A stretch of DNA of 18,668 nucleotides, taken from Lachnospiraceae bacterium. Lineage in GTDB: Bacteria > Bacillota > Clostridia > Lachnospirales > Lachnospiraceae. Made by a program: the position numbers and the translations under genes. Below, one piece after another: positions 2,136 through 18,668 of this stretch (positions are counted from its first letter, which is position 1; each line of letters begins with the position of its first letter). The stretch spans positions 1 to 18,668 of the forward strand of contig JAILJL010000206.1 in the NCBI GenBank assembly GCA_024694785.1, in the 5' to 3' direction. Under the pieces are notes generated by a model. The model was not told where the DNA came from, did no database searches, and saw only the letters and a program-made list of their open reading frames with translations.

Positions 2136-2147
2136 GTACTTTTATAA

Positions 2148-3350
2148 TTATTTTTGCTCAAGACTTGTAAGTCCTCTTTCACCGGCCGTTATGACTATCA
2201 CCGCTCCCGCTAATGCCATTATGCTAGATATAAGGAGCATTGTATTAACTGAAAACCTGTCTATAATCACTCCGCCCATAAGGCTTCCCACAAACGATCC
2301 CAAAGCCGTAGTCATAGTCATCATTGCCTGTCCTCTTACTCTGTTATTGTAGTCGATTATATTCTCTACGAATAGTATACTTGCTCCGGCGAAAATACCA
2401 TATCCAAGCATCGACAGCGACATTGAAAAGTACATAACCACCATGTTCTTGGCAAGATACATAACAACGTTACGCACAAATATGAAGAATACGGCAAATT
2501 TAAAGAGTGTACCGGACGGAACTTTTTTATTAATCGTACTGAGAAGAAACAATGCAGGCAATTCGCATGCGGCGGCAATAAAAATACCATATCCCATCTC
2601 AGAACTCGTAAGTCCTATATTATCGTATATCTGAAACATGTAATTACTTATGATATTGTGGCTCACGAATACAAGTATATTACCCACTATAACTATGAAA
2701 AAACGCTTATATCGCAAGATAAATCCGATAAGGGATAAATTATCTCCCGTACTCTTTCCTTCATCCGTAACGGCATTTTTTGCGTTCTCATCAATGCCCT
2801 TAAAATGAAAGGTCGCTATCGCTATAATCAAGAGAATGTATATTGCAATAATAGCATATATTATCACATTCACACCCTGTCTCTCGATAAGCACGCCGAG
2901 AATCGCAGAACAGATTGCATATGCAAGTGACCCAATACCTCTTGCTATACCAAAATCTATCGGTATTCCCTTTGACACGAAAAACATGGCAAGGGAATAT
3001 GTAAGCGGCGTCATTATCTGTGAAAAAGCTATAATAAGCGTATACAGTAAAAACACCATCCAGAATACCTTATTAAACGACAGAAGCATTCCGGCCAGTA
3101 TCATTATTATTACCGAAAACGTCATAAGAAGCTTATGCAGAATAAGCTTCTTACTTCTGTCCGCAAAGCCTCCCACCACAGGCTGCGCTATTGCGGATAA
3201 TATACTTCCGAGGGAAAGGATATAACCTATCTCGGTATTACTTAAACCTTTATCGAGAAGATACATACCGGCATATGCCAATATCGCACTGAAAGTCGAC
3301 CAGAATGCTGCCTGTAATATGCAATATCTCGCTGTTGCTTTTAATCTCAT
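2148..3350 (-). CDS. MFS transporter, LacY/MFS_1_like type, substrate unknown
   Basis: Polytopic inner-membrane carrier of 400 aa with about twelve hydrophobic segments split by a polar central loop (about 183-205), the usual two-halves layout of the major facilitator superfamily. The loop between segments 2 and 3 carries the family motif A as GGFADRSKK (60-68). The N terminus, with an aromatic WSTFSAILAYAGMYL stretch, resembles the oligosaccharide/nucleoside symporter-like branch (MFS_1_like), so a sugar or similar substrate is possible but not shown. The ATG follows the rho stop codon by 8 nt; AGGA of its ribosome binding site overlaps that stop codon, which indicates co-transcription and translational coupling with rho. 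I see no terminator after it, so transcripts may run into rpmE. Confidence 0.85.
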   Translation of the reverse strand: MRLKATARYCILQAAFWSTFSAILAYAGMYLLDKGLSNTEIGYILSLGSILSAIAQPVVGGFADRSKKLILHKLLMTFSVIIMILAGMLLSFNKVFWMVFLLYTLIIAFSQIMTPLTYSLAMFFVSKGIPIDFGIARGIGSLAYAICSAILGVLIERQGVNVIIYAIIAIYILLIIAIATFHFKGIDENAKNAVTDEGKSTGDNLSLIGFILRYKRFFIVIVGNILVFVSHNIISNYMFQIYDNIGLTSSEMGYGIFIAAACELPALFLLSTINKKVPSGTLFKFAVFFIFVRNVVMYLAKNMVVMYFSMSLSMLGYGIFAGASILFVENIIDYNNRVRGQAMMTMTTALGSFVGSLMGGVIIDRFSVNTMLLISSIMALAGAVIVITAGERGLTSLEQK

Positions 3351-3358
3351 AATTAATC

Positions 3359-4792: not shown

Positions 4793-4872
4793 ATAATCTT
4801 CCTTCCGTATATCAAAATATAAATCAGTGAGTAGATGCCCGAACCGACATGAAATCAAAAAAACAAATCGAT

Positions 4873-4900
4873 ATTATACTAGACTCCGAATCACATACAA
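4873..4900 (-). promoter_or_regulatory. Predicted sigma-A promoter for rho
   Basis: Minus strand: -35 TTGTAT (4895-4900), 16-nt spacer, perfect -10 TATAAT (4873-4878). The predicted start near 4866 gives a leader of about 75 nt with a T-rich run early on. No stable hairpin is evident in the leader. It lies between the opp terminator and rho, as expected for an independent rho-MFS unit. Confidence 0.75.
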
Positions 4901-4978
4901 GCGATTCAACTAATTAATACAATACTCTATTTTTAAAAAAGTTTCAATCCCATATTTTTTATCTTTCTTTTCGTCCAC

Positions 4979-5014
4979 AAAAAAAGAAGAAAGACCGCAG
5001 TTTCCCGCGGCCTT
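4979..5014 (-). terminator. Intrinsic terminator of the opp operon
   Basis: About 20 nt after the oppA stop codon, the minus strand forms a 10-bp stem AAGGCCGCGG / CTGCGGTCTT (two G-U pairs) around a GAAA tetraloop, followed by a T-rich tract (CTTCTTTTTTT). It is GC-rich, well formed and placed at the operon end. Confidence 0.9.
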
Positions 5015-5035
5015 CCCTCTCAAAAAAGAAAGGAT

Positions 5036-6763
5036 CTATTTTCTGGTTGCATACGTAAAGAAGTAATATCCCAGTGGTGTCTGGAAGCAATTCTCGATAC
5101 CATCTGCTATACAGAATGCTCTTGTGTAATAGTAGATTGGGCATACAGGGAATCCGTTTTCACCAAACAACTCTTCTTCAGCCTGGTAAAGGATAGCATC
5201 ACGCTCTGCGCTGGCTGCCTTTGACTTAGCTGCCAATACATCAGCATCAAACTTGCTGTCTGAATAAAGTCCGTAGTTATATGGATTACCTGTTGTGAAA
5301 AGCTCCAGGTATGTAAGTGCATCGTTATAATCTGCGATCCAGCCAAGACGTGCTACACCGAATGTGTGCTCGCCAAGACCTGTTGTATATGTATTCCATT
5401 CCTGGTTCTGAAGTGCGATATTAAGTCCGAGTACTGTCTGCCAATCGGAACCAACTGCTTCTGCAATAGCCTTATGTGCTTCGGAAGTATTGAAGTTGTA
5501 TACTACTGTTGTATCTGCATTCCACTTTCCGTCAGCAATTGCTGAATCATAAAGTTCCTTCGCAAGTGCGCAACGTCCTGAATATGTTGAAAGATCAAAT
5601 GCCGGATATGCCTTCTGCATTGCAGAATACATAGCACCAAGCTCGGAGATTCCTTCTGAGAAGTCCTTGCCCGTTGAGTCTGTAATACCCTTAGCAACAA
5701 GTCCTGTAGCAGGAGTCTGTCCTCCCTGTGTAACGTTTTCAACGATGTTCTCTCTATCTATACTAAGTACCATAGCTGCACGTACTCTCCAGTCGGTAAC
5801 GATACTGCAGTTAATGTAGAGATAATATGTACCGATGTAAGGATCAATGAAGCAATCGCCTGATGCCTTAAGGCTTTCAATCATATCTGAAGGGAAGCTC
5901 TCGATAAAGTCGAATTCGCCTGCCTGATAGCTTGAAAGAATAGCTGTCTCGGAATCTGATAAGCCCCACTTAATCTGATCAGGACCAAGGTTATCATAAT
6001 CATAATACTTCTCATTCTTTTCCATTAAGATATAGCTGTCATGTACCCACTCAACAATCTTATATGGGCCGTTAACAACGATATTCGCAGGATCTGTCCA
6101 GTTATCATTTCCTTCAACTACATCTTCACGAAGAGGCATTAATGATGCGAAACCGCAAAGAGACATGAAATATGCACAAGGTGACTCAAGAGTAATCTCT
6201 AATGTCTTCTCGTCAATTGCCTTGATTCCGAGTTCGGACTTATCCTTATCACCTGCCTGAATTGCAGCTGCATTAAGAACGATATTGTCAAGGATGTAAC
6301 CATAATCGGATGCTGTTGCCGGATCAACGATTCTTCTCCAGGCATATACGAAATCATTAGCTGTAACTTCTACACCGTCAGACCAGTAAATATCATCACG
6401 AAGTGTGAAGGTATATACCATCTCGTCATCAGAAATCTTAACTTCTTTCGCCTGACCAAAATCAATATCGCTGTTGTACATCTGCTTTGACTCATCAGAA
6501 TACTCGGATGTAGGAACGTACTTCATTAAGCCTTCAAACTGATGCTGTGTGTAAGTAGAACCATCAACTGATGAAATGAGACCCGGATCGATTGTCTCAG
6601 GCTCAGATGCGATACATGCATTAAGAATGAATGGTCCTTTATCCTTACCTGTGTCGCCGCCGTTGTTGCCGCCATTATTACCTGTATTGGTATTTCCACC
6701 GCATGCTACAAGGGCTAATACCATAGCTGCAACAAGTAAAATTGAAACTAGTTTCTTTTTCAT
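5036..6763 (-). CDS. oppA: Oligopeptide-binding lipoprotein OppA (SBP family 5)
   Basis: Extracellular, lipid-anchored receptor that captures peptides for the OppBCDF importer. Residues 1-20 are a lipoprotein signal peptide (KKK, hydrophobic core) ending in the lipobox LVAC with C21 as the acylated cysteine. A Gly/Asn-rich flexible linker covers about 22-43, then a full-length SBP_bac_5 domain follows (575 aa total, normal). Characteristic elements are EPETIDPG near 54-61, YTFTLRDDIYWSDG and TANDFVYAWRRI, typical of the family. Peptide specificity cannot be read from the sequence, and a dipeptide receptor is not excluded. The start has a strong AAGGAGG 9 nt upstream. It is the last gene of the operon, preceded by a 62-nt gap with a hairpin and followed by a terminator; many such operons put the receptor first. 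Confidence 0.93.
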   Translation of the reverse strand: MKKKLVSILLVAAMVLALVACGGNTNTGNNGGNNGGDTGKDKGPFILNACIASEPETIDPGLISSVDGSTYTQHQFEGLMKYVPTSEYSDESKQMYNSDIDFGQAKEVKISDDEMVYTFTLRDDIYWSDGVEVTANDFVYAWRRIVDPATASDYGYILDNIVLNAAAIQAGDKDKSELGIKAIDEKTLEITLESPCAYFMSLCGFASLMPLREDVVEGNDNWTDPANIVVNGPYKIVEWVHDSYILMEKNEKYYDYDNLGPDQIKWGLSDSETAILSSYQAGEFDFIESFPSDMIESLKASGDCFIDPYIGTYYLYINCSIVTDWRVRAAMVLSIDRENIVENVTQGGQTPATGLVAKGITDSTGKDFSEGISELGAMYSAMQKAYPAFDLSTYSGRCALAKELYDSAIADGKWNADTTVVYNFNTSEAHKAIAEAVGSDWQTVLGLNIALQNQEWNTYTTGLGEHTFGVARLGWIADYNDALTYLELFTTGNPYNYGLYSDSKFDADVLAAKSKAASAERDAILYQAEEELFGENGFPVCPIYYYTRAFCIADGIENCFQTPLGYYFFTYATRK

Positions 6764-6787
6764 TAGATGAAACCTCCTTATTATTTT

Positions 6788-6817
6788 CCATATATTAAAA
6801 GGGTTAAACCCATATGG
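6788..6817 (-). promoter_or_regulatory. Stem-loop between oppF and oppA
   Basis: On the minus strand CCATAT (6812-6817) pairs with ATATGG (6788-6793), enclosing a second short stem GGGT/ACCC (6801-6811) that is followed by TTTTA. It could be a weak terminator, an RNase processing site or an mRNA-stabilising structure giving oppA a different level from the transporter subunits. The thermodynamic stability is modest. Confidence 0.45.
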
Positions 6818-6825
6818 TACTTTAA

Positions 6826-7818
6826 TTATTTCTCAAGTAAATGACATGCAGCATAATGCTTCGGTGCATACTCCTTAAGTACAGGCATATCCTGCTTACA
6901 ACGCTCTGTCGCATAAGGACATCTTGTATGGAATCTGCATCCCGAAGGCGGATTAATCGGGCTTGGGATATCTCCTTCAAGGATAATTCTCTCCCTTGCT
7001 CTGCTCTTAACAGGATCCGGTAACGGAACTGCCGATAAAAGCGTCTTGGTGTAAGGATGTATCGGATTGGAGCAAAGTTCGAAACTATCTGCAAGTTCTA
7101 CCATACAACCAAGATACATAACACCGATTCTGTCGGAAATATGTCTTACAACCGAAATATCATGTGCAATGAAAAGATATGTAAGTCCCATATCAGACTG
7201 CAGATCTTCAAGCATATTAACTACCTGAGACTGAATAGATACATCAAGCGCCGAAATAGGCTCATCACATACGATAAACTCAGGATTAACCGCCAAAGCT
7301 CTTGCGATTCCGACTCTCTGCTGTTGTCCGCCGGAGAACTCGTGCGGGAATCTGTTTGCATGCTCCGTATTAAGTCCTACTTCCGAAAGAAGCTCTCTTA
7401 TTCTATCCGTTCTGTCCTGCTTACTTTGACATAACTTATGAATGTCAAGCGCTTCTCCGATAATCTCACCTACCGTCATACGAGGATCGAGTGACGCCGA
7501 CGGATCCTGGAAAATAATCTGCATCTTTCTCCTATATGGAAGCATGTTCTCAGCTATATGCTTCCCGGAATCGTATATAGGCTTACCATCATATACGATC
7601 TTGCCCGATGTCGGCTCATGGAGTCTTATTATAGTACGGCCGAGCGTTGTCTTACCGCAGCCACTCTCGCCTACAAGGCCTAATGTCTCGCCCTTATAAA
7701 TATTAAAAGTAGCGCTTTCAACCGCCTGTACATAATTCTTCTTAAATCCGCCGGTCTTAACGGCGAAATACTTCTTAAGGTTCTCTACCTCGAGGAGTAC
7801 CTTTCTCTCTTCTGCCAT
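6826..7818 (-). CDS. oppF: Oligopeptide ABC transporter ATP-binding protein OppF
   Basis: One of two cytoplasmic ATPases powering peptide import. It is 330 aa, typical length. Walker A GESGCGKT (50-57), Q-loop [12 protein letters not shown] (101-112), ABC signature FSGGQQQR (161-168), Walker B FIVCDEP (181-187), D-loop SALD, H-loop His219. The C-terminal oligopeptide/dipeptide extension has four cysteines, C294, C300, C307 and C325 (C-X5-C-X6-C-X17-C), a pattern associated with an iron-sulfur cluster in some related transporters. The ATG is 3 nt after the oppD stop; AAGGAGGAG lies within the oppD end, so translation is coupled. OppF rather than OppD is assigned from its longer N-terminal insertion ([13 protein letters not shown]) and its position after oppD. 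Confidence 0.93.
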
Positions 7819-7821
7819 CTT

Positions 7822-8826
7822 CTACTCCTCCTTCTTTCCCTTAAGATCTTTGAAGTGTAACCAGCATGCCGATATATGACCATCACCAAGATCTGCATAA
7901 GGCGGCTTCTTGGTAAGACATATCTTCATACAGTTCTTACATCTTGGACCGAAATTACATCCTGTAGGAGGATTAAGAAGATCGATCGGAGTTCCCTCGA
8001 TAGGAATAAGTCTCTCCGGCTCTTCTTCATCAAGCCTCGGCTGTGATGCCAATAATCCCTTTGTATAAGGATGCTGGGGATTATAGAACAATTCTTCCAC
8101 GCCGGCCTGCTCAACTATTCTTCCTGCATACATAACGGATACTTTGTCACAAATCTCCGCAACTACACCCAGGTTATGTGTAATGAAGATAATTGATGTA
8201 TTCTCTTTCTTCTGGAGCTCTTTCATAAGCTCAAGAATCTGTGCCTGAATACTAACATCAAGAGCTGTTGTAGGCTCATCCGCTATAAGGAGCTTAGGTC
8301 TGCAGATAAGTGCCATAGCTATCATTGCTCTTTGTCTCATACCGCCTGAAAACTCATGCGGGTACTGATTAATACGCTTCTCGGCATTATTAATACCAAC
8401 CTTCTCAAGCATCTCAATAGCACGTGCTCTTGCTTCTTCCTTGGTAATCTTGTCATCATGAACCGTTAATGCCTCCATTAACTGATTACCGATTGTATAT
8501 ACCGGGTTAAGACAAGTCATCGGATTCTGGAATATCATACTTACCTTGTTACCGCGGAACTGTCTCATCTGCTCCGGTGTATATGCCAATAAGTCTTCTC
8601 CCTCAAAAGTAATCGAACCGCCGGTTACTTTACCGGGATTCTGTAAAAGACCGATAATTGAATATGCCTCAACACTCTTTCCGGAACCGGATTCTCCAAC
8701 GACACCCATAACCTCATTATAACCAAGCTCATATGAAATGCCGTCTACTGCTTTAACTTCGCCGGCCGGAGTGAAGAATGAAACCTTCAGGTCTTTAATC
8801 TCAATAAGTTTTTTGTTGTCTTCCAT
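7822..8826 (-). CDS. oppD: Oligopeptide ABC transporter ATP-binding protein OppD
   Basis: Second ATPase of the importer, pairing with OppF. It is 334 aa, typical length. Walker A GESGSGKS (44-51), Q-loop MIFQNPMTCLNP (97-108), signature FSGGMRQR (159-166), Walker B LLIADEP (179-185), H-loop His217. The phrase FSGGMRQR with ADEPTTALD is characteristic of the OppD/DppD branch. The C-terminal cysteines C290, C296, C303 and C321 have the same spacing as in OppF, with an additional C299. The start has GGAGGG 7 nt upstream, overlapping the end of oppC, so all four transporter subunits appear to be translated in a coupled chain. Confidence 0.94.
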   Translation of the reverse strand: MEDNKKLIEIKDLKVSFFTPAGEVKAVDGISYELGYNEVMGVVGESGSGKSVEAYSIIGLLQNPGKVTGGSITFEGEDLLAYTPEQMRQFRGNKVSMIFQNPMTCLNPVYTIGNQLMEALTVHDDKITKEEARARAIEMLEKVGINNAEKRINQYPHEFSGGMRQRAMIAMALICRPKLLIADEPTTALDVSIQAQILELMKELQKKENTSIIFITHNLGVVAEICDKVSVMYAGRIVEQAGVEELFYNPQHPYTKGLLASQPRLDEEEPERLIPIEGTPIDLLNPPTGCNFGPRCKNCMKICLTKKPPYADLGDGHISACWLHFKDLKGKKEE

Positions 8827-8838
8827 CGATTCGCCCTC

Positions 8839-10209
8839 CTACTTCTTAAGTCTAGGATCAAGTGAATCTCTTAATCCGTCTCCGACAAGGTTAAGTGATA
8901 ATACTATAACCGTAAGAATAATTGCCGGGAAGATAAGTCTATACGGGAATAAACTTATCGTCTGCAATGCATCCGAACAAAGTGAGCCTAAACTCGCCAT
9001 AGGTGCGGATACACCCATTCCCAGGAATGAAAGGAAGGACTCAAGGAATATAGCAGACGGAATCTGGAGGCAGGTTGTAATAACAAGCTGACCTACACAG
9101 TTTGGCAATAAATGTCTCTTGATAATTCTTCCGTTGGAAGCACCAAGCGCATTTGCCGCCGTTACATATTCCTGTTTCTTTAACTGAAGAACCTGACCAC
9201 GAACGATACGTGCCATTGTTACCCAGTATAAAAGTGCGAATGTAATGAAAATACTTACTATACCTGCTCCGAGGTCACTTAATCCCTTGACAAAAGCGCT
9301 TTTACTCGAATCAAACCAAGCCTGCAGAGGATCTTTAAGTACAACCTGTAAAAGTAATACTACCAATACTTCAGGAATAGAATAGATAAGTTCTACTATT
9401 CTCATCATTACAAAATCTACAGGTCCTCCGGCAAGACCGGATATAGAACCATATATAGATCCTATTAAAAGTACGATCAAGGCTGCGATTATACCGATAA
9501 TGATTGATACTCGCGCACCGAACATTGTACGCACCATGCTGTCACGTCCCTGAGAGTCAGTACCGAATAAATGCGGGAATACGTTTTTAACAAGCTTAAG
9601 CTGCTCAGCTCCTTTAGCTGCGGTATCTGTATACTGAATCGTCTCATACTCCGAGAACGAACCGTCTTTCGCAATATCTTTCATGCGCACTATTACAAGT
9701 TCTTCTTCGATACCTACAGGCTTATACATTATAATTACATTTTCCGCTACTTTGTCCAATGTAAATGCATAAGTCTTACCGCCTTTTTTGATTACGTAAT
9801 CACCTTTTTCAAGTGCGGTAATACTTCCCGGGCGAAGTGCAGTCGCATAGAATGCCTTACACTTACCTTCTATAAGCTTAACCTGCTGTTCCTGCTTGGA
9901 ATACTCCATAGGTCCAAGCTTCTGTGCATTTCTAAGCTGATCCGCATAATTATACGGAACGAACTTAGGTCCTGCAAAAGCAAATAACATACAAATTATA
10001 AATACGCCGAGCGCTACCATGGATACATGATTGCTCTTAAATCTTCTCCATGCATCAGCCCAATACGATACGCTCTTATGCATCTCAACCATCGATTCTT
10101 TCTCTATATCGTTGGCTGCGTCGAATGAATTGTCGTCCAAACCAAAAGCTTCTTCCAACTCTTTCGGATCCACCTGGAAAGGACTTATCTTAGCAAAAGT
10201 TTCCTTCAT
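8839..10209 (-). CDS. oppC: Oligopeptide ABC transporter permease OppC with enlarged external loop
   Basis: Membrane channel subunit partnering OppB. N-terminal cytoplasmic region about 1-60 with WADAWRRFKSN; first membrane segment about 62-80; the motif FGTDSQGRD at 215-223 precedes the binding-protein-dependent permease domain; the coupling (EAA) loop is EYVTAANALGASNGRII (347-363); the C terminus ends GDGLRDSLDPRL as in the family. At 456 aa it is about 150 longer than classic OppC (about 300). Most of the excess is residues about 92-208 between the first membrane segment and FGTD, where about 20 residues are usual. Topology puts this region outside the cell, beside OppA. The ribosome binding site GGGAGG overlaps the oppB stop. 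Confidence 0.93.
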   Translation of the reverse strand: MKETFAKISPFQVDPKELEEAFGLDDNSFDAANDIEKESMVEMHKSVSYWADAWRRFKSNHVSMVALGVFIICMLFAFAGPKFVPYNYADQLRNAQKLGPMEYSKQEQQVKLIEGKCKAFYATALRPGSITALEKGDYVIKKGGKTYAFTLDKVAENVIIMYKPVGIEEELVIVRMKDIAKDGSFSEYETIQYTDTAAKGAEQLKLVKNVFPHLFGTDSQGRDSMVRTMFGARVSIIIGIIAALIVLLIGSIYGSISGLAGGPVDFVMMRIVELIYSIPEVLVVLLLQVVLKDPLQAWFDSSKSAFVKGLSDLGAGIVSIFITFALLYWVTMARIVRGQVLQLKKQEYVTAANALGASNGRIIKRHLLPNCVGQLVITTCLQIPSAIFLESFLSFLGMGVSAPMASLGSLCSDALQTISLFPYRLIFPAIILTVIVLSLNLVGDGLRDSLDPRLKK

Positions 10210-10212
10210 CTT

Positions 10213-11154
10213 CTAGTCCTCCCTTGATGATAATGTGATTCGCGGATCCACAATCTTATATGCTATGTCAACAACAAGATTCATGAATATTACGAGTGCA
10301 GAAAGAACGAACGTGGTTGCCATAATTACCGTATAGTCACGGGCGAGTACGCTCTGTACGAAATACTTACCAAGACCCGGTACGGAGAATGTGGACTCGA
10401 CTACAAAACTTCCCGTAATAATACCTGCAATAACCGGTCCTATATAGGTAATTACCGGAATAAGCGAATTCCTTAACGCATGCTTAATAACGATGCTTTT
10501 GGTTGTAACACCCTTGGCTCTTGCGGTTCTTATGTAATCCTGATTAATTGCATCAAGCATACTTGTTCTTGTAAGCTTTGAAAGATAGCAGACATAATAG
10601 AAAGACAAGCTGACTATCGGCATTACATAAACATTGAAAGAGTCGAGGCTACCGCTTATTGTCGGTAACCACTGCAGTTTAACCGCAAAAGTTACGAGAA
10701 GCAATGTTGCAAGTACGAATCCCGGAATAGCAACTCCGATTGTCGTAACGACTCGTAAGAATCCGTCTAACCACGTGCCTCTGTTATAAGCTGCAATACA
10801 GCCGAGCGGTATTCCGATTATAACCGCAACAAGAAGCGCTATCAGACCTAATTTGATTGATAACTGGAATTTGCCCTGGTGGAATAAAATGTCGGTTACC
10901 GGTGTACCTTCCTGCATCTTTAACGATACTCCAAAATCACCGTGACAATATGACACCAGATAGTTCTTGAATTGAACGATAAGCGGCTTATCAAGTCCAT
11001 ATTTGGCATTGGCCGCAGCTATCTGTTCAGGTGTTGACTTCTCTGTAATAAACGGACTGCCGGGTACCGCGTTCATAAGAAAGAACGTGATTGCGAGTAC
11101 CACAAGCAGCGTGCCTACAGAGGCAAGCAAACGCTTGAGAATATACCACAACAT
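10213..11154 (-). CDS. oppB: Oligopeptide ABC transporter permease OppB
   Basis: First gene of the opp operon and one half of the transmembrane channel. It is 313 aa, normal length, with six hydrophobic segments. N-terminal LWYILKRLL and the AVPGSPF motif (about 29-35) are typical of OppB/DppB. The coupling loop is DYIRTARAKGVTTKSIVIKH, and FVVESTFSVPGLGKYFVQSV is the conserved C-terminal block. Its stop codon lies inside the oppC ribosome binding region. The ATG is preceded by TGGAGG, but 12 nt away, an unusually long spacing; no better start is visible. The upstream leader is structured, so initiation here may be regulated. Confidence 0.93.
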   Translation of the reverse strand: MLWYILKRLLASVGTLLVVLAITFFLMNAVPGSPFITEKSTPEQIAAANAKYGLDKPLIVQFKNYLVSYCHGDFGVSLKMQEGTPVTDILFHQGKFQLSIKLGLIALLVAVIIGIPLGCIAAYNRGTWLDGFLRVVTTIGVAIPGFVLATLLLVTFAVKLQWLPTISGSLDSFNVYVMPIVSLSFYYVCYLSKLTRTSMLDAINQDYIRTARAKGVTTKSIVIKHALRNSLIPVITYIGPVIAGIITGSFVVESTFSVPGLGKYFVQSVLARDYTVIMATTFVLSALVIFMNLVVDIAYKIVDPRITLSSRED

Positions 11155-11194
11155 ACTTTTTCTAAACCTCCAACCTTCTAACCCGGTAAGCCGA

Positions 11195-11244
11195 ATTTCT
11201 CACCTATCCGTGTGGTCTGCACACCCTACGGATAACAGAGAAAT
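11195..11244 (-). promoter_or_regulatory. Structured leader RNA upstream of oppB, class unknown
   Basis: The minus strand can fold as ATTTCTC / GAGAAAT (7 bp), a 3x3 internal loop, TATCC / GGATA (5 bp), a 5-nt one-sided bulge GTAGG, then GTGTG / CACAC (5 bp) with a CAGAC loop: 17 pairs in 50 nt. Two more possible stems flank it: ATGTC / GACAT (11259-11275) upstream, and GGTGAG / CTTACC (11185-11204) downstream. The downstream stem uses the same GAG bases as the long hairpin and so is mutually exclusive with it. No terminator lies between here and oppB. I do not recognise a known riboswitch or T-box consensus. The rest of the 279-nt gap 11155-11433 holds the opp promoter candidate and the preceding operon's terminator. 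Confidence 0.5.
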
Positions 11245-11311
11245 ATCGCTGACAGGACATGTCGTATTTTGACATAATCCTCTCCACTTGACCAAATTAT
11301 TTCTTAACTAA

Positions 11312-11341
11312 AGCTTACAACAACAGTCCAATTTCAGTCAA
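11312..11341 (-). promoter_or_regulatory. Candidate promoter for the opp operon
   Basis: Minus strand: TTGACT (11336-11341), 18-nt spacer, TAAGCT (11312-11317). The -35 is good, the -10 poor. An alternative slightly downstream is TTGTTG with a 16-nt spacer to AATAAT. Either lies just after the upstream operon's terminator and gives a leader of roughly 130-150 nt before oppB. Confidence 0.35.
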
Positions 11342-11344
11342 GTG

Positions 11345-11374
11345 AAAAAAGCTAAATTGAATAATTTTCAATTT
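11345..11374 (-). terminator. Intrinsic terminator of the kinase-regulator-GGDEF operon
   Basis: Minus strand: AAATTGAA-AATTA-TTCAATTT (8-bp AT-rich stem) followed by AGC and six T residues, 60 nt after the stop codon of the GGDEF-like gene. The stem is weak because it is AT-rich, so some readthrough into opp is possible. Confidence 0.65.
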
Positions 11375-11433
11375 ATTTATTTTTTGTTGAATTATTCTTC
11401 GTTTTTCGTTAACAATTCGTTTACAAGTTCTCC

Positions 11434-12918
11434 CTATAATACCCTGAACATTCTTCCTTTTCCTTCTCGCAATCTCTCCGGTCGCTTCTTTGCTGCTCTG
11501 TACTCTTTCTCGAAATCATCAATATTATCAACGATAAATGACGAGCTTCTGGCGGATACCTGCACATCATCCACCTCATAACCCGCAATTCTTTTGTCAA
11601 TACGTTTAAATACATCCTGCGCCTTTTTATCGCTTGCATTCGTCATAATAAGCAAAAGTTCATTACCGCTGGTTCTTATTACAAGATCCGGCGTGCCGGA
11701 ATACTGTTGCAGAAGCCATGCAAGACGTGACAGCGCCTTATCACCTACATCAATACCATATACTTCATTGATTCCCGAAAGATCGTTGACGGAATATACG
11801 GCGCAATACAAAGGATAATGCCCGTCCTTTTTATATTCTTCCTTGACCTTATACAGATACTTTCTTGTATATGTACCTGTCAGGGCATCATGGTCTGCAT
11901 TAAATTCCGCAAGAAGCAAAGCCTTCTTGCTTTCCGTCACATCTTCATACAGATACATCGAACCTATCTTTCGATTCTTCTTGTCCTTTAAACAGTTATA
12001 AGTTACTCTGAAATAGTATACCAGGTTATCGGAATTAATAGTTGTCTCAAACTCCTGGCGGTTCAACGCATGATTAAGCTCAAGATAAGGATTCTTCCGT
12101 AAAAATTCTTCTTCGCAGGTATCATTTTCTATTTGAAACAATTCTCTTGCTCTTTTATTAACCAAAAGCAATTCGCCCAAATGGTTGAAAAGAAGCATCG
12201 GTGTCTTCATTTCCTCCACAAAAACGGATCTTGCAGCACTTTGTACGCCCACGCTTCTGTAACGATACAAATAGAAATATATAAAACACGCCAATACAGG
12301 ATATGCAAACATCGCATAATCCACCGATGAATTCAATATTCTTGATACGATATCACATACAACGAATAAAGTAAGCCATACGGCTATAGTCAAATACTTC
12401 CCGCGGTATACCCTCGCGACTTTAAACGAATAGAAATAAAGATGGACGGTTGCCACGGTAAGCAACAAGACGCATGCTATAAAATGTATATAAAGGGCAT
12501 AACTTTGAACGCATTTAAGGTATATCTCTCCGTTAACTTCGTGCTCAATAAACGCATCCCTGATATTAACCAGATAATGCGCAGGGAACAGTATCGTGTC
12601 CATTACGAGTACAATCGATATTAAAAATGCGAATCTTCTGTTCTTAACCTCTTTGTCCGTGTAAAAAAGGACGAACACATTAAGAAAGCTTAATAACCAT
12701 ATAATGCTTACATATGTATATATCAAACCCAGGCGCATAAGATAGAAATTATCGGTCGCAAGATATACAACATAACCAATCATTGCGCTCGATACAAAAG
12801 CAAATATACCCGATACGGCTTTGCCCTGCTTTGTATTACGCCCCAAGCTTTTGAAAAAGAGCATCGCCACCACAGTTGCCAGCGTCAAAAATAACCCGGC
12901 GTAAATCTCTTTACTCAT
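11434..12918 (-). CDS. 7TM-PAS protein with degenerate GGDEF domain
   Basis: Membrane sensor-like protein, 494 aa from the ATG. Seven hydrophobic segments (about 5-220) form a 7TM sensor region, followed by a PAS-like domain (about 228-335, MLLFNHLGELLLVNKRA) and a GGDEF-fold domain (about 335-494; DALTGTYTRKYL, INEVYGIDVGD). Key residues are altered: the signature is SGNEL (417-421) instead of GGDEF, the metal-binding Asp of the DxD segment is Ser (YSVNDL), and the inhibitory-site Arg of RxxD is Gly (GTPD). Diguanylate cyclase activity is therefore unlikely; GTP or c-di-GMP binding, or a purely structural role, remain open. A GTG directly before the ATG is less likely as start because GGGAG fits the ATG better. 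It is the third gene of the operon, 24 nt after the response regulator. Confidence 0.85.
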   Translation of the reverse strand: MSKEIYAGLFLTLATVVAMLFFKSLGRNTKQGKAVSGIFAFVSSAMIGYVVYLATDNFYLMRLGLIYTYVSIIWLLSFLNVFVLFYTDKEVKNRRFAFLISIVLVMDTILFPAHYLVNIRDAFIEHEVNGEIYLKCVQSYALYIHFIACVLLLTVATVHLYFYSFKVARVYRGKYLTIAVWLTLFVVCDIVSRILNSSVDYAMFAYPVLACFIYFYLYRYRSVGVQSAARSVFVEEMKTPMLLFNHLGELLLVNKRARELFQIENDTCEEEFLRKNPYLELNHALNRQEFETTINSDNLVYYFRVTYNCLKDKKNRKIGSMYLYEDVTESKKALLLAEFNADHDALTGTYTRKYLYKVKEEYKKDGHYPLYCAVYSVNDLSGINEVYGIDVGDKALSRLAWLLQQYSGTPDLVIRTSGNELLLIMTNASDKKAQDVFKRIDKRIAGYEVDDVQVSARSSSFIVDNIDDFEKEYRAAKKRPERLREGKGRMFRVL

Positions 12919-12942
12919 CACTTATTCTCCCTTACAAATCTA

Positions 12943-13893
12943 TTAGAATAATCTGTTAAAATGGTATCCCTGGCCGTTATCAATTTCTTCTTTCGAAGGC
13001 GCAGCCACCTCTTTGATTCCACCGGTGTTAGGCTTCTTCATTGTGTCAAGAAGGTCTCTGACCAGATTCTCCGCCTCTTCATCATCGAATTCATCAAGAT
13101 GCATCTTAATCTTCGCAAGTTCCAGGCTGATACGCTCCGGTATGTCATGTTTCTGAAGATCCGATACTTTGATTGCAGCTTCCTTAATCTTGAAATTAAC
13201 AAGGTCATCGAGTATGTAAAGCAGTCTCGCATTTATCTCACCGACACTTATCGGTGCGCCTGATATACTGCCACCCGAAGATGCATTGTTCTTCTCAAGG
13301 AGTCTGATAACTCTGTCCATCATATTGGCTGCCTGCTCTACCATTCCTTTTTCAAGCTTCATCTTGGCATTCTTAATACGTCCGGACACTTCAATATCAA
13401 TCTGATATCCAAGCACTTCGTCCATTTTGTATATAGCTCCTTTTACACGGTCGTTGGCTATATCATCATGTATCTCCTTAAGCCTGTAGATAAGCTCCTC
13501 TTCTTCCATCGGAAGCTTTCCAAGACGCTTGAATACACGCTCAATACGCTTCTGCAAATCATCCGGTTCAAAGGGTTTGGTAATATAGTCCATTATTCCC
13601 AGCTTACTTCCTTCGAGAACCGTGTTTTTGTCGGTTCTTGACGTAAGAAATATAACAGGAACCGTTGTTCCGTTGGGCTGTGTTCTTATCTCTCGCAATG
13701 TATCTATTCCATCCATAATAGGCATCTGAACATCGAGCAGTATAAGATCGACTCTGTCTCTATATAAGTATTTAACTGCTCTTCTTCCGGAGATCATTGG
13801 AATGACTTCATACTTCTCCATCAAAGATTGTTCAACAGTAGCAAGATTAACAGTATTGTCATCCACAACCATTACTCTCATTTTCTCAAACAT
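12943..13893 (-). CDS. REC-domain response regulator with two tandem helical modules, no DNA-binding domain
   Basis: Cytoplasmic phosphoacceptor protein of 316 aa. Residues 1-122 are a complete receiver: acidic pair D11/D12, phosphoacceptor D54 (LLDVQMPIMDG), T84, K106 (TKPFEP). The rest is not a DNA-binding or enzymatic output domain. It holds two copies of a helical module at about 133-200 and 219-285, followed by a low-complexity tail. The second copy matches the C terminus of the upstream kinase closely (25 of 66 identical, no gaps). Output is therefore likely by protein-protein interaction, perhaps with the kinase or the GGDEF-like protein. The ATG has GAGGTG 7 nt upstream and lies 30 nt after the kinase stop. 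How it becomes phosphorylated is unclear, since the neighbouring kinase lacks an H-box. Confidence 0.88.
   Translation of the reverse strand: MFEKMRVMVVDDNTVNLATVEQSLMEKYEVIPMISGRRAVKYLYRDRVDLILLDVQMPIMDGIDTLREIRTQPNGTTVPVIFLTSRTDKNTVLEGSKLGIMDYITKPFEPDDLQKRIERVFKRLGKLPMEEEELIYRLKEIHDDIANDRVKGAIYKMDEVLGYQIDIEVSGRIKNAKMKLEKGMVEQAANMMDRVIRLLEKNNASSGGSISGAPISVGEINARLLYILDDLVNFKIKEAAIKVSDLQKHDIPERISLELAKIKMHLDEFDDEEAENLVRDLLDTMKKPNTGGIKEVAAPSKEEIDNGQGYHFNRLF
13039..13239 (-). other. Shared helical module, copy 2 in the response regulator
   Basis: Encodes residues 219-285 of the regulator. Pattern: L..IL.DL..FK.KEA, then a DL core, I, IK..L, DD..AE.L.RDL..T. It aligns without gaps to the kinase C terminus (13927-14124) with 25 identities in 66 positions. 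Confidence 0.7.
13294..13497 (-). other. Shared helical module, copy 1 in the response regulator (divergent)
   Basis: Encodes residues 133-200. From the DD pair onward it aligns without gaps to copy 2 (offset 86 residues), sharing about 14 of 57 positions, including the DD, K, A, IS, K-M, L and A-N positions. Weaker than the other match but in the same register throughout, consistent with an internal duplication. Confidence 0.55.
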
Positions 13894-13923
13894 AATTCAT
13901 CACCTCGGCAAATCCGGTTATCC

Positions 13924-16701
13924 CTATAATGTCTTAATAAGATCTCTCAAAAGATCCTCAGCCGCATCATCATCGTACAGCTTAAGTTTACTTTTAATGT
14001 TGTTAACTGCGGCCCTTCTTTCTCCGCCTATTCTGTATTGAAGCAGATCGTTAATCTCCACCATCGCCTCTTTCGATTTAAAGTCCTCAAGGTCTTCAAG
14101 TATATCTACAAGCTTATCTTTGAGGACACGCTTATCACCAATTTCCGGAAGGTTCTCTTCCTCCTTCTCCACATTGCCTATAAGCCCGTTTCTCACAAAC
14201 ATCTTCTGAAGTTCATCAAGCACTTCCCTATAATCGGCTGCCAATTTCTCGTAATTATCCATTACAAATTCTTCATTGCCATCCTTAGCCGCATATTCAT
14301 GCTCCTTCGCCTCATTTGAAAGCGCCACGGCTCCGATATTTGCAGCCGCGGACTTAAGACCATGCACCTCGATCTCATATCCTCTAAGTTCTCCCTCATC
14401 CGCATACTTTCTTATCAGATCAAGTTTATTAAGTCCGTCCTCATGGAATAACACCATAAGATCAAGAACGTTTTTGATTCCTGTCTTATGTACCTTAAGT
14501 GCTTCCTCTATATCGACATTATTCATTCTGTATGAGTCGATATTCTCATCATCATTTATTGCATCCTCGCCTTCGGATTCCCCGGAGATTTCTCCCGGCT
14601 TGGCATACTTTTTCATAAGATCATACAGCTCATCCGTATTAATCGGTTTTGCAATAAAGTCATCGAATCCGTTACCGAGAAACATTTTGTCCGTTCCGTC
14701 CAAAGCATTCGCGGTCAGCGCTATTATAATCGGCTTCTTTCCGTTATCTCCGCATTCCGTTCTTATAAGCGCGGTAGCTTCTATGCCGTCCATCTCAGGC
14801 ATCATATGATCCATGAAAATCATGTCATACCGCTTATTCTTGACTTTGGCAATTGCCTCCATGCCGCTTGAAGCTTCGTCCACATTTGCCTTATATGTCT
14901 GAAGCAGTCCTACCGCAACCTTCAGGTTAATCTTATTGTCATCAACCACAAGTATCTCTGTATTCGGGAACATAACTCTTTCTTCATGAATTATTTCAGT
15001 CTTTCCGGCCATCTTGCTTTCTTTTTCTCTGATCAATGCGCCTGCCGGCGTTTTATCTACTATTTTCTGCGGAATTATTATGGTAAAAGTGCTTCCCTCT
15101 CCGGATTTTGATTCCATATCTATAAAACCGTCCATAAGTTCCGCAAGATCCTTACATATTGCAAGTCCATAACCTTTTCCTTTCTCCGTCTCGCCTTTAC
15201 TTATGTCAATATTTCCGATGCTTTCAAGAAGCATACGCTGCTTCTCTTCACTTATACCTATTCCGGTATCACTGATTCTTATAATAAGATCAATATCCTT
15301 TTCGCCTATTATCTCATAGTCAACTTCAAGCTTCACATAACCTTCCTTGGTGAATTTAACCGCATTGCTCAATATTTTGACCGCAATCTGCTTGATCTTT
15401 TCATAATCACCAAGAAGCTTAGCAGGCATCGATTCATTAATTCCATACTTGAATTCGAGATTATGCTCTTCAACCATATACTCGACGATTGTGCACAGCT
15501 CATCCGTAAGCTTATTAATCTCATACGGTAATTCATATATATCCGTTCTACCGGCCTCAGACTTTGAACTATCCAGAATACCATTGATTATCTCCATTAA
15601 TGAATTGGATGCATTCTTAATATCTTTCACAAAATCATATACCTTCCTGCCCTGGCTCTCCTCTATAATAAACTCCGCATCCTTAGGGCTCTCTTTCTTG
15701 GCGAGCTTTTCTGCATATGCTCTTATTCCCGTAACATCAATAATTACAATCGAATAACCTCTAAGCTCATTAAAATAATCTCTGATTTCGCCGACATGTG
15801 ATTCGTAATGTCTGTCGTTATAGATAAAGCTGTTATTGCCCACATGCGTAAAGCACTCAAAGGCAAGTCCGGTTGCAAGAGTGATGGTATCGTCCTCTTT
15901 AATTGTCACAAGCTGCGGGAAAAGCTCTCCTGCAGAGTCATTGTAATAAAGAACATGGAGCCCCACATCTATCGTAATAATGGCGTCCTTAATCGATTCA
16001 AGTGTCTTTAACTGTCCGGTTCTTACCACGTCAAAGAACTTAAGTCTTACAAACATATAAATTGCGATACATACCACTATAAGTGCCGTAAGCGGCGCGA
16101 AATCAAACCCACTATTCGGATTGGTTACATGCAGTACCATTGCAAGCAAAGGAAGGAAAGATAACCCGAGAGTATAAAGCATAGTCTTTCTCTGATGGAT
16201 TTCTTTCTCTATAACTATCTGTTTCATAAGTACGGCTACGCAGCAACTTAACGGAACCAGAACGCTTAATATGTATGAGAAGAATCCCCAATTATATTCG
16301 AGTACAAGATGAGGTCTTACGTCGGTTGTAAAATCTACGCTTTTATAGAAAAAATGCGTATATCTGTCGGTCCAAACCAATACGCTCGAAACAAAACCAA
16401 GAAAAACACATACCCATATAAAGACTCTGTTAATCTGCCGATTACAGTGAACAAGAACAAAATAACAAAATGACAATGAAAAAAACGATGCCGCTACATA
16501 CTCTAAGAGTACAGCATTCATCGCGCCCTCCATTGTAGTTGATCCAAGCTCCATAAGCACACCTATATTATGCGCAGTACTTAAAAGCAATGTCATCAAC
16601 ATAAGCTTATGCTCTTTTGACGCCTCAATTGTAAGCAGATAGTAAATAGCTCTCGCTGCAATAAGAAGTCCTATAACTTCGATAATCGAGTACACAACCA
16701 T
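13924..16701 (-). CDS. 7TM-PAS hybrid histidine kinase lacking the H-box (ATPase, REC, HPt and shared module present)
   Basis: Membrane signalling protein, 925 aa. Seven hydrophobic segments (1-220); PAS domain about 230-328; remnant of the dimerisation region about 340-385 (second helix with LMEIINGILDSSKSEAG); ATPase domain about 425-545 with N446 in the N-box, G1 DTGIGI (478-483) and G2 GKGYGLAI (508-515); receiver about 580-700 with D587/D588, phosphoacceptor D631, T663 and K685; HPt domain about 730-835 with H780 in VHGLKSAAANIG; shared helical module 860-925. No SHE(I/L)RTP-type H-box exists: AEFIIEES runs straight into the second helix, with no His in 331-370. It may depend on another kinase through REC/HPt or act without autophosphorylation. 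The ATG follows GGGGTG by 5 nt, and a promoter lies 45 nt upstream. Confidence 0.88.
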   Translation of the reverse strand: MVVYSIIEVIGLLIAARAIYYLLTIEASKEHKLMLMTLLLSTAHNIGVLMELGSTTMEGAMNAVLLEYVAASFFSLSFCYFVLVHCNRQINRVFIWVCVFLGFVSSVLVWTDRYTHFFYKSVDFTTDVRPHLVLEYNWGFFSYILSVLVPLSCCVAVLMKQIVIEKEIHQRKTMLYTLGLSFLPLLAMVLHVTNPNSGFDFAPLTALIVVCIAIYMFVRLKFFDVVRTGQLKTLESIKDAIITIDVGLHVLYYNDSAGELFPQLVTIKEDDTITLATGLAFECFTHVGNNSFIYNDRHYESHVGEIRDYFNELRGYSIVIIDVTGIRAYAEKLAKKESPKDAEFIIEESQGRKVYDFVKDIKNASNSLMEIINGILDSSKSEAGRTDIYELPYEINKLTDELCTIVEYMVEEHNLEFKYGINESMPAKLLGDYEKIKQIAVKILSNAVKFTKEGYVKLEVDYEIIGEKDIDLIIRISDTGIGISEEKQRMLLESIGNIDISKGETEKGKGYGLAICKDLAELMDGFIDMESKSGEGSTFTIIIPQKIVDKTPAGALIREKESKMAGKTEIIHEERVMFPNTEILVVDDNKINLKVAVGLLQTYKANVDEASSGMEAIAKVKNKRYDMIFMDHMMPEMDGIEATALIRTECGDNGKKPIIIALTANALDGTDKMFLGNGFDDFIAKPINTDELYDLMKKYAKPGEISGESEGEDAINDDENIDSYRMNNVDIEEALKVHKTGIKNVLDLMVLFHEDGLNKLDLIRKYADEGELRGYEIEVHGLKSAAANIGAVALSNEAKEHEYAAKDGNEEFVMDNYEKLAADYREVLDELQKMFVRNGLIGNVEKEEENLPEIGDKRVLKDKLVDILEDLEDFKSKEAMVEINDLLQYRIGGERRAAVNNIKSKLKLYDDDAAEDLLRDLIKTL
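13927..14124 (-). other. Shared helical module at the C terminus of the hybrid kinase
   Basis: Encodes residues 860-925, beginning LKDKLVDILEDLEDFKSKEA and ending LLRDLIKTL at the stop codon. It is predicted all-helical with heptad-like Leu/Ile spacing and many charges, and has no His, so it is not an HPt copy. It is homologous by eye to both modules of the neighbouring response regulator. Confidence 0.7.
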
Positions 16702-16745
16702 AAGTTCACCCCATAATGCATACTAACGTCCTATTTTAGGTAATC

Positions 16746-16775
16746 ATCATAATTTTATCATATGCATTTTTTCAA
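16746..16775 (-). promoter_or_regulatory. Predicted sigma-A promoter of the kinase operon
   Basis: Minus strand: -35 TTGAAA (16770-16775), 18-nt spacer, -10 TATGAT (16746-16751). The leader would be about 38 nt. The remaining gap up to 16854 shows only a 10-bp palindrome ACCATATGGT at 16832-16841 of unknown meaning. Confidence 0.65.
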
Positions 16776-16854
16776 TAGAATACTCTCCACATTAACTACA
16801 CACTTTATTCTCTGTTTCTTCGCACCTTAAGACCATATGGTTATATGATAAATT

Positions 16855-16877
16855 AAGCGGGATATAACATCCCGCTT
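16855..16877 (-). terminator. Terminator after the nadE-linked small gene
   Basis: A 9-bp stem AAGCGGGAT / ATCCCGCTT with a 5-nt loop lies 3 nt after the stop codon. On the minus strand it is followed by AATTTATC, a poor T tract; on the plus strand it is followed by TTATTATT. Position argues for a minus-strand terminator, possibly of moderate efficiency. Confidence 0.7.
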
Positions 16878-16880
16878 TTA

Positions 16881-17585
16881 TTATTCCGCTTCGTCGGAAT
16901 TCGCCGATATCTCGACCGTTCCTCCGTCAGACGTCTTAATTCTGTAATTGTCAGTCATAAGATTCTTGATTGATATATATCCGCCCTTGCAGGCAAATAC
17001 CGCTTCGTCGGAATTAAGTATATCCACGTACAGCGTTCCGGACCCCATCACCAATGATACATATCCCAGACGCGTATCACCAACCGCTATCGAAGTTATT
17101 CCCCCTTGCGCTTTTAGCGATAATTCACTGATCACCACTGCAGGCGGTACGACAATCTCCACATAAGATCCACTCGAACTTGTTGCTTCCGCCGGGCTTT
17201 TTTGCCTTATTACTATAAGGGAGCCCACATTATTAACCGTAATCTCCTCATCACTTGAGGCTATATGCGTAAATACCTGAACGGATGTTGCCATCTCATC
17301 AAGCTTGATGTTAACGGTTGCATAATCCACTTCTATGTCAAAATTACGCACTTCCGACACTTCATAGGCATACGAGGATTCGCCGAAATCTTCCTCCTCG
17401 TAAAAATCGGAAGGCGGTTCCTCTTCATCCTCAGTCGACTCTTCGCTCTTTTGTGGCGCGTCCTTACTAATATTACTCTTTACTTCCGGCTTATTAAGCC
17501 ACATTGCAAAGCCTATGAGCAAAGCTATACATACTATCGTTACCGACAATATCCAGGCTTTGTCTTTATTAAGATTAAGCTTCAC
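16881..17585 (-). CDS. Membrane-anchored protein with acidic linker and DUF4097-like beta domain, function unknown
   Basis: Protein of 234 aa with a short Lys-rich cytoplasmic N terminus, one membrane segment at about 12-30 (an uncleaved anchor or signal, with no lipobox), an acidic and Ser/Pro-rich linker at about 38-72, then a domain of regularly spaced short beta strands (about 80-230) rich in V/I, S, G and T. The alternation resembles DUF4097/adhesin-like beta-helix domains; this assignment is tentative. The domain would lie outside the cell. The start is GTG, immediately after the nadE stop codon (TAA then GTG), with GGAGG 8 nt upstream, so it is translated in coupling with nadE. Nothing in the sequence ties it functionally to NAD synthesis. 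Confidence 0.75.
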   Translation of the reverse strand: MKLNLNKDKAWILSVTIVCIALLIGFAMWLNKPEVKSNISKDAPQKSEESTEDEEEPPSDFYEEEDFGESSYAYEVSEVRNFDIEVDYATVNIKLDEMATSVQVFTHIASSDEEITVNNVGSLIVIRQKSPAEATSSSGSYVEIVVPPAVVISELSLKAQGGITSIAVGDTRLGYVSLVMGSGTLYVDILNSDEAVFACKGGYISIKNLMTDNYRIKTSDGGTVEISANSDEAE

Positions 17586-18668
17586 TTATATATCCTCCAA
17601 CTCTTTCAACCATAATTCCGCTGAAGCATCCGACGGCATTCTTAAATCCCCGCGTGGCGAAACCGCAACAGAACCCACCTTCGGACCATCCGGCAGACAT
17701 GAGCGCTTGAACTGCTGAGCGAAAAATCTTCTGTAGAAGACATTCATCCACTTAATGATAACCTTCTCATCATACCTGTTCTCAAAAGCCAGCAGGGCGA
17801 GTCTATATATTTTCTTCGGTCCGAAACCATATCTTAAGACGTAGTACATGAAGAAATCGTGCAATTCATACGGTCCTACAAGTTCCTCCGTCTTCTGTGC
17901 TATCTTACCATCTTCAGGCGGTAAAAGCTCCGGACTTACAGGTGTATCAAGAACATCTTCAAGTACCCTAGCAAGCTTCTTATCAGCAATAACCTCTGCA
18001 TAATATCTGACAAGATGCCTTACCAATGTCTTTGGAATCGAAGTATTGACAGCATACATGGACATATGATCTCCGTTATAAGTTGCCCATCCCAATGCGA
18101 GCTCCGACATATCACCGGTTCCGATAACCATTCCGAAATACTTGTTTGAAAGATCCATAAGAATCTGCGTTCTTTCACGCGCCTGACAGTTCTCGTATGT
18201 CACGTCGTGAACGGAAGGATCATGTCCTATATCCTTAAAATGCTGATTAACCGAATCTTTAATGGAAATCTCAAGTAAAGTCGTTTTTAATCCCTTTACG
18301 AGCATAAGCGCATTCTCATACGTTCTGTCCGTTGTACCGAATCCCGGCATGGTTACCGCAATTATATCTTTGTGCGGCTTACCTATAAGGTCAAAAGCTC
18401 TGACCGTTACAAGCAATGCCAATGTGGAATCCAGGCCGCCCGATATACCTATAACTGCGGTTTTGGCATTGGTATGCTCAAGTCTCTTCTTAAGGCCGTA
18501 AGCCTGGATATCAAAGATCTCTTCACAGCGCTTTGTACGTTCCTTGTCGCCCGAAGGCACAAACGGTGAAGGATCTATATACCTTGTAAGGAACGTCTCT
18601 TCATTCTTAATGAGGAATTCACGCACCTCATAGTAATCTTCCTTATCATTCTCATATGTATTGATTCT
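17586..18668 (-). CDS. nadE: Glutamine-dependent NAD(+) synthetase, C-terminal part (5' end outside window)
   Basis: Final step of NAD synthesis: ATP-dependent amidation of deamido-NAD. The reading frame is open to the window edge (an in-frame GTG at 18626 is internal), so the N terminus is missing. Visible is the whole synthetase domain: PP-loop ISGGLDST (SGGLDS codons at 18426-18443), [34 protein letters not shown] and the C-terminal [19 protein letters not shown] block. These, together with [20 protein letters not shown], mark the long glutamine-dependent type, whose N-terminal nitrilase-like glutaminase domain would lie to the right of the window. That domain is inferred, not seen. The small beta-domain gene follows without a gap. 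Confidence 0.93.

Follow-up and report, generated by a model that had tools for sequence, protein, structure and literature searches.

The window analysed here is the whole stretch of 18,668 nucleotides of contig JAILJL010000206.1 (assembly GCA_024694785.1, Lachnospiraceae bacterium; positions 1 to 18,668 of the forward strand), and it carries on its minus strand three consecutive genes that form an apparent operon: a hybrid histidine kinase homologue, a response regulator 30 bases downstream of it, and a protein with a seven-transmembrane (7TM) region and a GGDEF-like domain. The kinase homologue (13924..16701, 925 residues), as read from its open reading frame (ORF), Pfam matches and our own domain profiles, is ordered as a 7TM region, a middle region, a HisKA remnant without histidine, a HATPase, a receiver domain (REC), a histidine phosphotransfer domain (Hpt) and a helical module at the C-terminus. 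The 7TM sensor region (HisKA_7TM, residues 10-226) lies at 16024..16674 (Pfam, 7.6e-21), and HATPase_c at 15064..15411 (Pfam, 2.2e-20) with its N, DTGIGI and GKGYGLAI boxes retained by motif reading. The receiver at 14617..14955 retains its phospho-acceptor aspartate (FMDHMMP; Pfam and alignment), and the Hpt domain at 14221..14460 its phospho-histidine (VHGLKSAA); the Hpt match scores 27.1 bits, above the cut-off, in a genome-wide search, and 22.2 bits, just under it, in the Pfam run on the window proteins. All these features lie on the minus strand.

The regulator gene (12943..13893, 316 residues) encodes a REC, two modules and a short tail. Its receiver (13540..13875; Pfam, 1.9e-27) retains the phosphorylation residues, and it is the acidic pair, phospho-aspartate, threonine and lysine of this domain that identify the protein as a response regulator. 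No Pfam match to a DNA-binding domain is found in it up to E 1, and the NCBIfam regulator models, in the 25 of 97 families shown, match residues 1-151 at most and all under cut-off; the protein thus does not appear to be a DNA-binding regulator of the OmpR, NarL or NtrC type. The helical module is present once in the kinase homologue, as the tail that follows Hpt (13927..14136; profile E 1.4e-24), and twice in the regulator, as a divergent copy 1 (13291..13515; E 1.2e-26) and as copy 2 (13036..13257; E 1.6e-28), which is nearest to the kinase tail.

An earlier reading of this DNA, made from the letters alone (the sequence-only reading), had aligned the kinase tail with the regulator and noted a third, more divergent copy. 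The alignment is reproduced in full: kinase residues 860-925 (nucleotides 13927-14124) and regulator residues 220-285 (nucleotides 13039-13236) align without gaps with 25 identities in 66 positions. The third copy is real, since shuffling and profile comparisons make all three homologous. Local alignment of the tail with copy 2 scores 116 (shuffled mean 30.2, standard deviation 5.6, z 15.4), of copy 1 with copy 2 84 (z 10.5), and of the tail with copy 1 62 (z 5.3), with 0 of 2000 shuffles equalling the score in each case; profile-profile comparison using alignments from related loci gives E 1.5e-20, 2.3e-11 and 1.2e-12 for the same three pairs. Judged by sequence, the three clearly belong to one family, with profile-defined bounds at kinase residues 856-925 and regulator residues 127-201 and 213-286. 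A signature composed of F-K-x-K and Y-D-D-x-A-E is common to the tail and copy 2 and is missing from copy 1.

The same reading called the first protein a sensor kinase, and this part of it does not stand, as it overlooked that the protein has no phospho-acceptor histidine. The HisKA match (15550..15735) is restricted to positions 17-66 of 66 and scores 20.6 bits with a cut-off of 26.9; Pfam and alignment both show the first helix, including the H-box histidine, to be deleted. In the window genome 17 of the 18 HisKA matches are above cut-off, and that of the window protein alone is below. By its H-box, then, the protein would not be classed as a HisKA-type histidine kinase. The same deletion is seen in P0122 and in P0121, a protein with 99% identity in its tail that occurs on 14 contigs.

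The kinase half is damaged in every genus member drawn. Seven genus genomes were drawn, the window genome included; all have the regulator (66-89% identical to that of the window) and none has an intact kinase partner. The lesions include the deletion in the window, a larger deletion (L134), a change of the histidine to arginine (L001), and a change of the histidine to phenylalanine together with a degenerate G1 box (L002 and L138, the G1 box having been read also under the label L137, which is the same as L002). In L139 the partner has 594 residues and is missing the sensor and DHp, and in L136 it is reduced to a REC-Hpt-module protein of 366 residues. Outside the genus, the partners at L012, L023 and L172 consist of REC-Hpt-module only, and the ~3 kb upstream of the reduced genes contains no recognisable kinase remnants (best E 0.37). 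Three of six genomes in the genus to which L172 belongs have the regulator; in the two besides L172, the partner is a full kinase that retains its histidine. Among the six other members of the window's genus, 142 of 150 HisKA matches are above cut-off, including those of the paired genes of G158, G160 and G162, in a test that detects deletions and not single lost histidines.

At the 34 loci with a module-bearing regulator the kinase histidine is present in 23, absent in 10 and unjudged in one (L017, where the kinase is cut at the contig start); at loci with a REC-only regulator it is present in seven of seven. The regulator tree, with 35 rows for which the state is given (L139, L189 and L190 are not in it), places three changes of histidine state. 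From one set of 80 retrieved loci, 49 (L031-L046 and L048-L080) were left out as matching mainly over REC and having titles from other groups; these and later counts also exclude the re-fetched duplicates L135, L137, L171, L175 and L176 and the first tandem kinase of L006, and the near copies L019 and L047 are excluded from trees and co-variation. The L139 regulator is cut by a contig end, and L177 is counted for Hpt residues only, outside the 41 pairs compared. Across this set the phosphotransfer residues are invariant: the Hpt histidine and lysine in 42 of 42, the hybrid REC aspartate in 41 of 41, and the aspartate, lysine, threonine and acidic residue of the regulator REC in 41 of 41. The unit retained is a REC-Hpt-module protein together with a REC-module-module regulator, and this series of eroded kinases is a more telling result than the question of docking.

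Two alternatives bear directly on these lesions. In CheA, the P4 domain phosphorylates P1, and the window protein could similarly still be a kinase, with its HATPase phosphorylating the Hpt histidine directly and the reaction rewired from DHp to Hpt. The N, G1 and G2 boxes are intact in the window protein and its nearest relatives, and among four members without the histidine the HATPase is about as conserved (mean 0.70) as the module tail (0.68), with the sensor at 0.55. However, the G1 box is degenerate in L002 and L138, and four loci that have no HATPase keep REC-Hpt-module, so this is no general mechanism. Direct phosphorylation of Hpt is possible for the window protein and not for the reduced loci, and as an account of the system we consider it improbable. 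It is more improbable still, to the point where we give it very little weight, that the pair is simply decaying in the genus, with the kinase near to a pseudogene and no function left. The variety of lesions in the kinase half and the degenerate GGDEF neighbour would fit such decay, but no reading frame is broken within the stretch that the contigs cover, the Hpt histidine, both aspartates and the module are kept in all members, and the regulators have the similarity to that of the window given above.

The module itself is ~70-75 residues long, consists of two alike alpha-hairpins (four helices) and occurs mainly in Lachnospiraceae. An AlphaFold2 model of the regulator built from 83 sequences (mean predicted local distance difference test score, pLDDT, 80.8; predicted template modelling score 0.50) shows a REC followed by two modules of four helices each, at residues 131-146, 150-161, 167-181 and 185-205 in module 1 and, in the same order with similar spacing, at 217-232, 236-247, 253-267 and 271-286 in module 2; the linker between the modules (205-211) and the C-terminal tail have low confidence. 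The model thus gives a common fold to the two copies in the regulator; the kinase tail would share this fold by sequence homology. Within the module, helices 1-2 resemble helices 3-4 (hhalign 82%, versus a best of 17% among 48 control windows). A relation to TPR-like repeats is a guess; TPR_6 and TPR_8 each match one of 22 module sequences, weakly. A comparison of the regulator model with known folds returned matches filled by REC domains, and is uninformative on the module.

The module is unnamed in the libraries searched, and the earlier suggestion that it is no recognised domain holds for the window, where no named Pfam or NCBIfam family covers it above cut-off. The same is true for Pfam on the window proteins as a whole, and for five homologues and four other kinase ends, none of which has a known family over the module above cut-off. 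Among 22 diverse module copies searched up to E 1 no Pfam family occurs in more than three and no NCBIfam family in more than one; for the whole window proteins the NCBIfam results are those of the 25 families shown of 97 and of 139. Module profiles find nothing in the PDB by sequence better than E 0.1, copy 2 has no match in PHROG, and PADLOC gives weak matches only, over REC or HATPase. A match of the whole-regulator profile to PDB 12aw_A extends past REC, with an extension that looks unconvincing, and matches to FIMAH and SbsC at regulator residues 166-203 are weak and under those families' own cut-offs. An origin as a degenerate Hpt or REC is rejected: hhalign gives nothing (probability <1%), and the kinase Hpt region compared with the copies gives z -0.7 to 0. 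Full-text literature searches listed no paper on this module or gene pair.

Where the module occurs shows that it is not peculiar to this pair. A profile of 17 copies finds it in 26 of 150 genomes of the family (taken as Lachnospiraceae from the titles of named relatives) at E 0.001, and at E 1e-4 a broader profile picks it out in seven of the 245 genomes searched in the class, six of which belong to the same family; the window genome has it in three further hybrid kinases. Loci L084-L114 have 31 ORFs with the module; in 29 it lies directly after Hpt, and 26 of these 29 have the order HATPase-REC-Hpt-module near the C-terminus; the two exceptions are a weak TPR-like match and a fragment at a contig end. 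Forms without a kinase also occur, as REC-Hpt-module (L155) and Hpt-module (L143). Proteins of ~300 residues at L122-L125 combine a hydrophobic stretch at the N-terminus with an Hpt-like domain and the module, and are found in four of the seven genomes with a REC-only paired regulator. The usual place of the module is thus directly behind the Hpt of hybrid kinases, and this position is probably ancestral. The sequence-only reading was right to describe an unnamed domain with one copy in the kinase and two in the adjacent regulator, in place of a DNA-binding output. The recurrence that it asked about is seen at the ends of Lachnospiraceae hybrid kinases and, more rarely, behind REC in adjacent genes; its view of a device that pairs these two proteins is not supported as stated, since the module was not made for this pair.

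Regulators like that of the window are rarer than the module, being found in eight of 397 family genomes at E 1e-40, and none is present at E 1e-60 in the seven searched of the 25 other module-bearing genomes. A protein search with the regulator returned 1442 clusters at E 0.001; the listing covers the best 120 of them, and the remainder may include many plain REC relatives; all 20 aligned relatives have both modules. The kinase homologue and regulator are adjacent and on the same strand at all 41 loci compared, with a gap of at most 100 bases in 40. One locus (L006:314-6024) has two full tandem kinases, both with the post-Hpt module and an H-box, ahead of a single regulator. Phage and plasmid collections searched at E 1e-30 contain nothing that matches the regulator, and so give no sign of carriage by mobile elements. 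In the module tree (from which L085, L098 and L107 are excluded, and in which the sequences are short and many forks unresolved) regulator copies 1 and 2 each have a single origin, with Shimodaira-Hasegawa-like approximate likelihood ratio (SH-aLRT) support of 99 and 96, and both group with the tails of the paired kinases against those of other kinases (92), with one other kinase, K_L090, inside. This pattern fits capture of the module by the adjacent regulator and its doubling behind REC. At the seven loci with REC-only regulators the paired kinases keep the module tail, and the six of these kinases that are in the tree form one clade nested among the kinases of module-bearing regulators, so that the REC-only regulators have probably lost their modules.

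We propose, as the best explanation of the whole and one that we hold to be about evenly balanced between right and wrong, that the adjacent regulator gained the post-Hpt module by copying and carries it doubled behind its REC, that the two proteins form a phosphorelay pair, and that the window protein is a hub fed in trans, in the manner of RcsD. Phosphate would pass from the hybrid REC to the Hpt histidine and on to the regulator REC, with the modules acting as protein-interaction surfaces beside the phosphotransfer site; most likely they would hold Hpt-module and REC-module-module together, possibly by copy 2 contacting the kinase tail. The regulator would act through protein contact and not through DNA. 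Having lost its own histidine, the window protein must obtain phosphate elsewhere or drain it, unless the HATPase acts on Hpt, and the hybrid proteins without histidine in the window and the genus would be RcsD-like phosphotransfer or phosphate-draining hubs. The donor may be a genome-encoded histidine kinase with a receiver (HK-REC) and without Hpt; six ORFs of the window genome with HisKA and REC and no Hpt match are candidates, and in the genus members L002 and L138/L179 the gene cluster itself includes an HK-REC whose H-box is intact and which lacks an Hpt. More tentatively, and with less confidence than doubt, we suggest that the homotypic module binds the relay together and that the kinase half then becomes dispensable, with three or more losses in the family and six kinds of erosion within one genus, to leave a portable two-gene relay adapter fed by other kinases.

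Several kinase genes near these pairs were noted separately. The interval between the regulator and GGDEF genes at L002 (10035-14477) holds an S8 peptidase with a CspB-type prodomain and an HK-REC with an SBP sensor, and L138:5019-8703 has a comparable arrangement of a similar-sized ORF and a like kinase. At L189:1-1680 an HK-REC ORF without a recognised Hpt lies just upstream of the paired kinase and regulator.

Whether the modules dock was addressed by partial Mantel tests on 32 kinase/regulator pairs under four distance treatments, with the other four domains controlled for in each test. The pair of Hpt and regulator REC ranks top under all four (r 0.41-0.50, p 0.0005), as expected of phosphotransfer partners. 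The kinase tail with copy 2 comes next under three treatments, and one place lower under the fourth (r 0.27-0.35, p 0.0005-0.008), and stays at 0.24-0.36 in eight leave-outs; the tail with copy 1 is near zero (-0.00 to 0.06).

A number of observations weigh against the explanation proposed. Without one further group, the L003 clade, the tail and copy 2 co-vary at only r 0.13 (p 0.09), and the signal is not exclusive to this pair, since the hybrid REC with copy 1 reaches 0.24-0.36 (0.36 by BLOSUM distance), in places equal to or above it, and the tail with the regulator REC is also positive (0.12-0.22). A branch-rate test on a fixed tree shows no co-variation either of the tail with copy 2 (r 0.06, p 0.33) or of the regulator REC with Hpt (r 0.10, p 0.22); the pairs that stand out in it are copy 1 with the hybrid REC (0.36, p 0.003) and copy 2 with Hpt (0.32, p 0.007). 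No homogenisation or gene conversion within loci is seen for tail and copy 2: pairs from the same locus are no more alike (0.262) than pairs from different loci (0.270; p 0.90). At six REC-only loci the tail is undiminished, with a mean identity of 0.751 versus 0.773 for Hpt, and being as conserved as Hpt without regulator modules beside it, the kinase tail has a use independent of them. The regulator of G606, one of the eight genomes above, has 213 residues with REC and module 1 only (L177:816-1454; its kinase is cut at the contig start). The HATPase motifs retained by the window protein are unexpected if ATP is no longer used. Finally, most loci compared are metagenome bins, and the window genome is a bin that is 69% complete.

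In a rival arrangement the kinase module would be just a structural extension of Hpt, packing on it or pairing the two kinase chains, and the regulator copies would serve separately as output, binding other proteins, their likeness deriving from one old duplication without any contact. The module's presence in hybrid kinases where the genome has no such regulator, the fully conserved tail beside REC-only regulators, and the lack both of pair-specific similarity and of branch-rate co-variation all fit it. It does not account readily for the way in which matrix co-variation separates the two copies, nor for the signature that copy 2 has in common with the tail and copy 1 does not; we regard it as a serious possibility that falls short of what we expect. 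Homotypic docking of the kinase tail with the regulator modules, the role given to them by the sequence-only reading, is plausible: it draws support from matrix co-variation of the tail with copy 2, and this weakens without one clade and is missing from the branch-rate test.

The regulator ends in a conserved peptide, GYHFNRLF (12946..12969, minus strand), which follows a stretch of low pLDDT and is present in only part of the family; several relatives have GYHxxRL and others lack it, and it could be a docking or anchoring peptide. The third gene of the apparent operon (11434..12921, minus strand; Pfam and alignment) encodes the 7TM-GGDEF-like protein, with the degenerate motif SGNEL. In the four genus relatives read (L134, L135, L136 and L002) the motif is SGNEI, NGNEM, NGGEM and DGGEM, with the acidic third residue missing, and cyclase activity of this neighbour is doubtful on the motif. 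Its 7TM sensor belongs to a family common to it and the kinase homologue. A promoter-like site 5' of the kinase gene (16746..16775, minus strand) agrees with 10 of 12 consensus positions and is weak, as the scan gave 9 sites versus 17.2 in shuffles. An Rfam search of the window gave no match.

These findings draw attention to a nameless domain that ends many Lachnospiraceae hybrid kinases, and provide an example of a regulator carrying a piece of its own kinase. The loci also constitute a natural deletion series, from the full kinase through point loss of the histidine and domain deletions to REC-Hpt-module only, which makes the question of what a hybrid kinase must keep directly testable.

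The phosphorelay is already known in kind, and the pair is a variant of it with a module shared by kinase and regulator. The closest comparison is with RcsD of Escherichia coli, a kinase-like membrane protein without the conserved transmitter histidine (PMC3842833). Phosphate moves from RcsC to RcsB by way of the RcsD Hpt, and the HATPase of RcsD is inactive (PMC7418988). The window protein is likewise kinase-like, without a transmitter histidine and with an intact Hpt. In RcsD an ABL domain before Hpt is reported to bind RcsB (PMC7418988), whereas the window protein has an intact REC between HATPase and Hpt, so that the order HATPase-ABL-Hpt is not found in it; a receiver domain of RcsD is mentioned in the cited part of PMC3842833 and is not among the domains given in that of PMC7418988. 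The extra domain of the window protein instead lies behind Hpt, is all-helical and is present twice in the regulator, which has no DNA-binding domain. By analogy, the window protein may work like RcsD and would not be RcsD; its module would take a role resembling that of ABL, the unusual point being that copies of the module sit in the regulator as well.

Relays with a borrowed Hpt are described in Pseudomonas, from PvrS through RcsC to RcsB and from LadS to the H2 domain of GacS (PMC3842833, PMC12189002), and resemble the proposed relay in that phosphate of one hybrid kinase passes by way of the Hpt of another. They differ in that the lender of the Hpt is itself a full hybrid kinase, and the cited passages describe no module shared by kinase and regulator. 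The Caulobacter hybrid kinase CCNA_03265 is missing the conserved histidine and keeps the receiver aspartate (PMC11481889), but is a single case for which the cited passage describes neither an Hpt-module tail nor a module-bearing regulator. The unorthodox hybrid kinases BarA, ArcB and TorS (NCBIfam NF008318, NF008302 and TIGR02956) have the same HATPase-REC-Hpt order, with matches far under their curated cut-offs; the window protein differs in having no H-box, and the ArcB and TorS matches stop at residues 834 and 813, before the module. Response regulators without DNA binding, whose REC acts through protein contacts, are known in CheY and DivK (PMC12471899), whereas in the window regulator the REC is followed by two copies of a kinase-type helical module.

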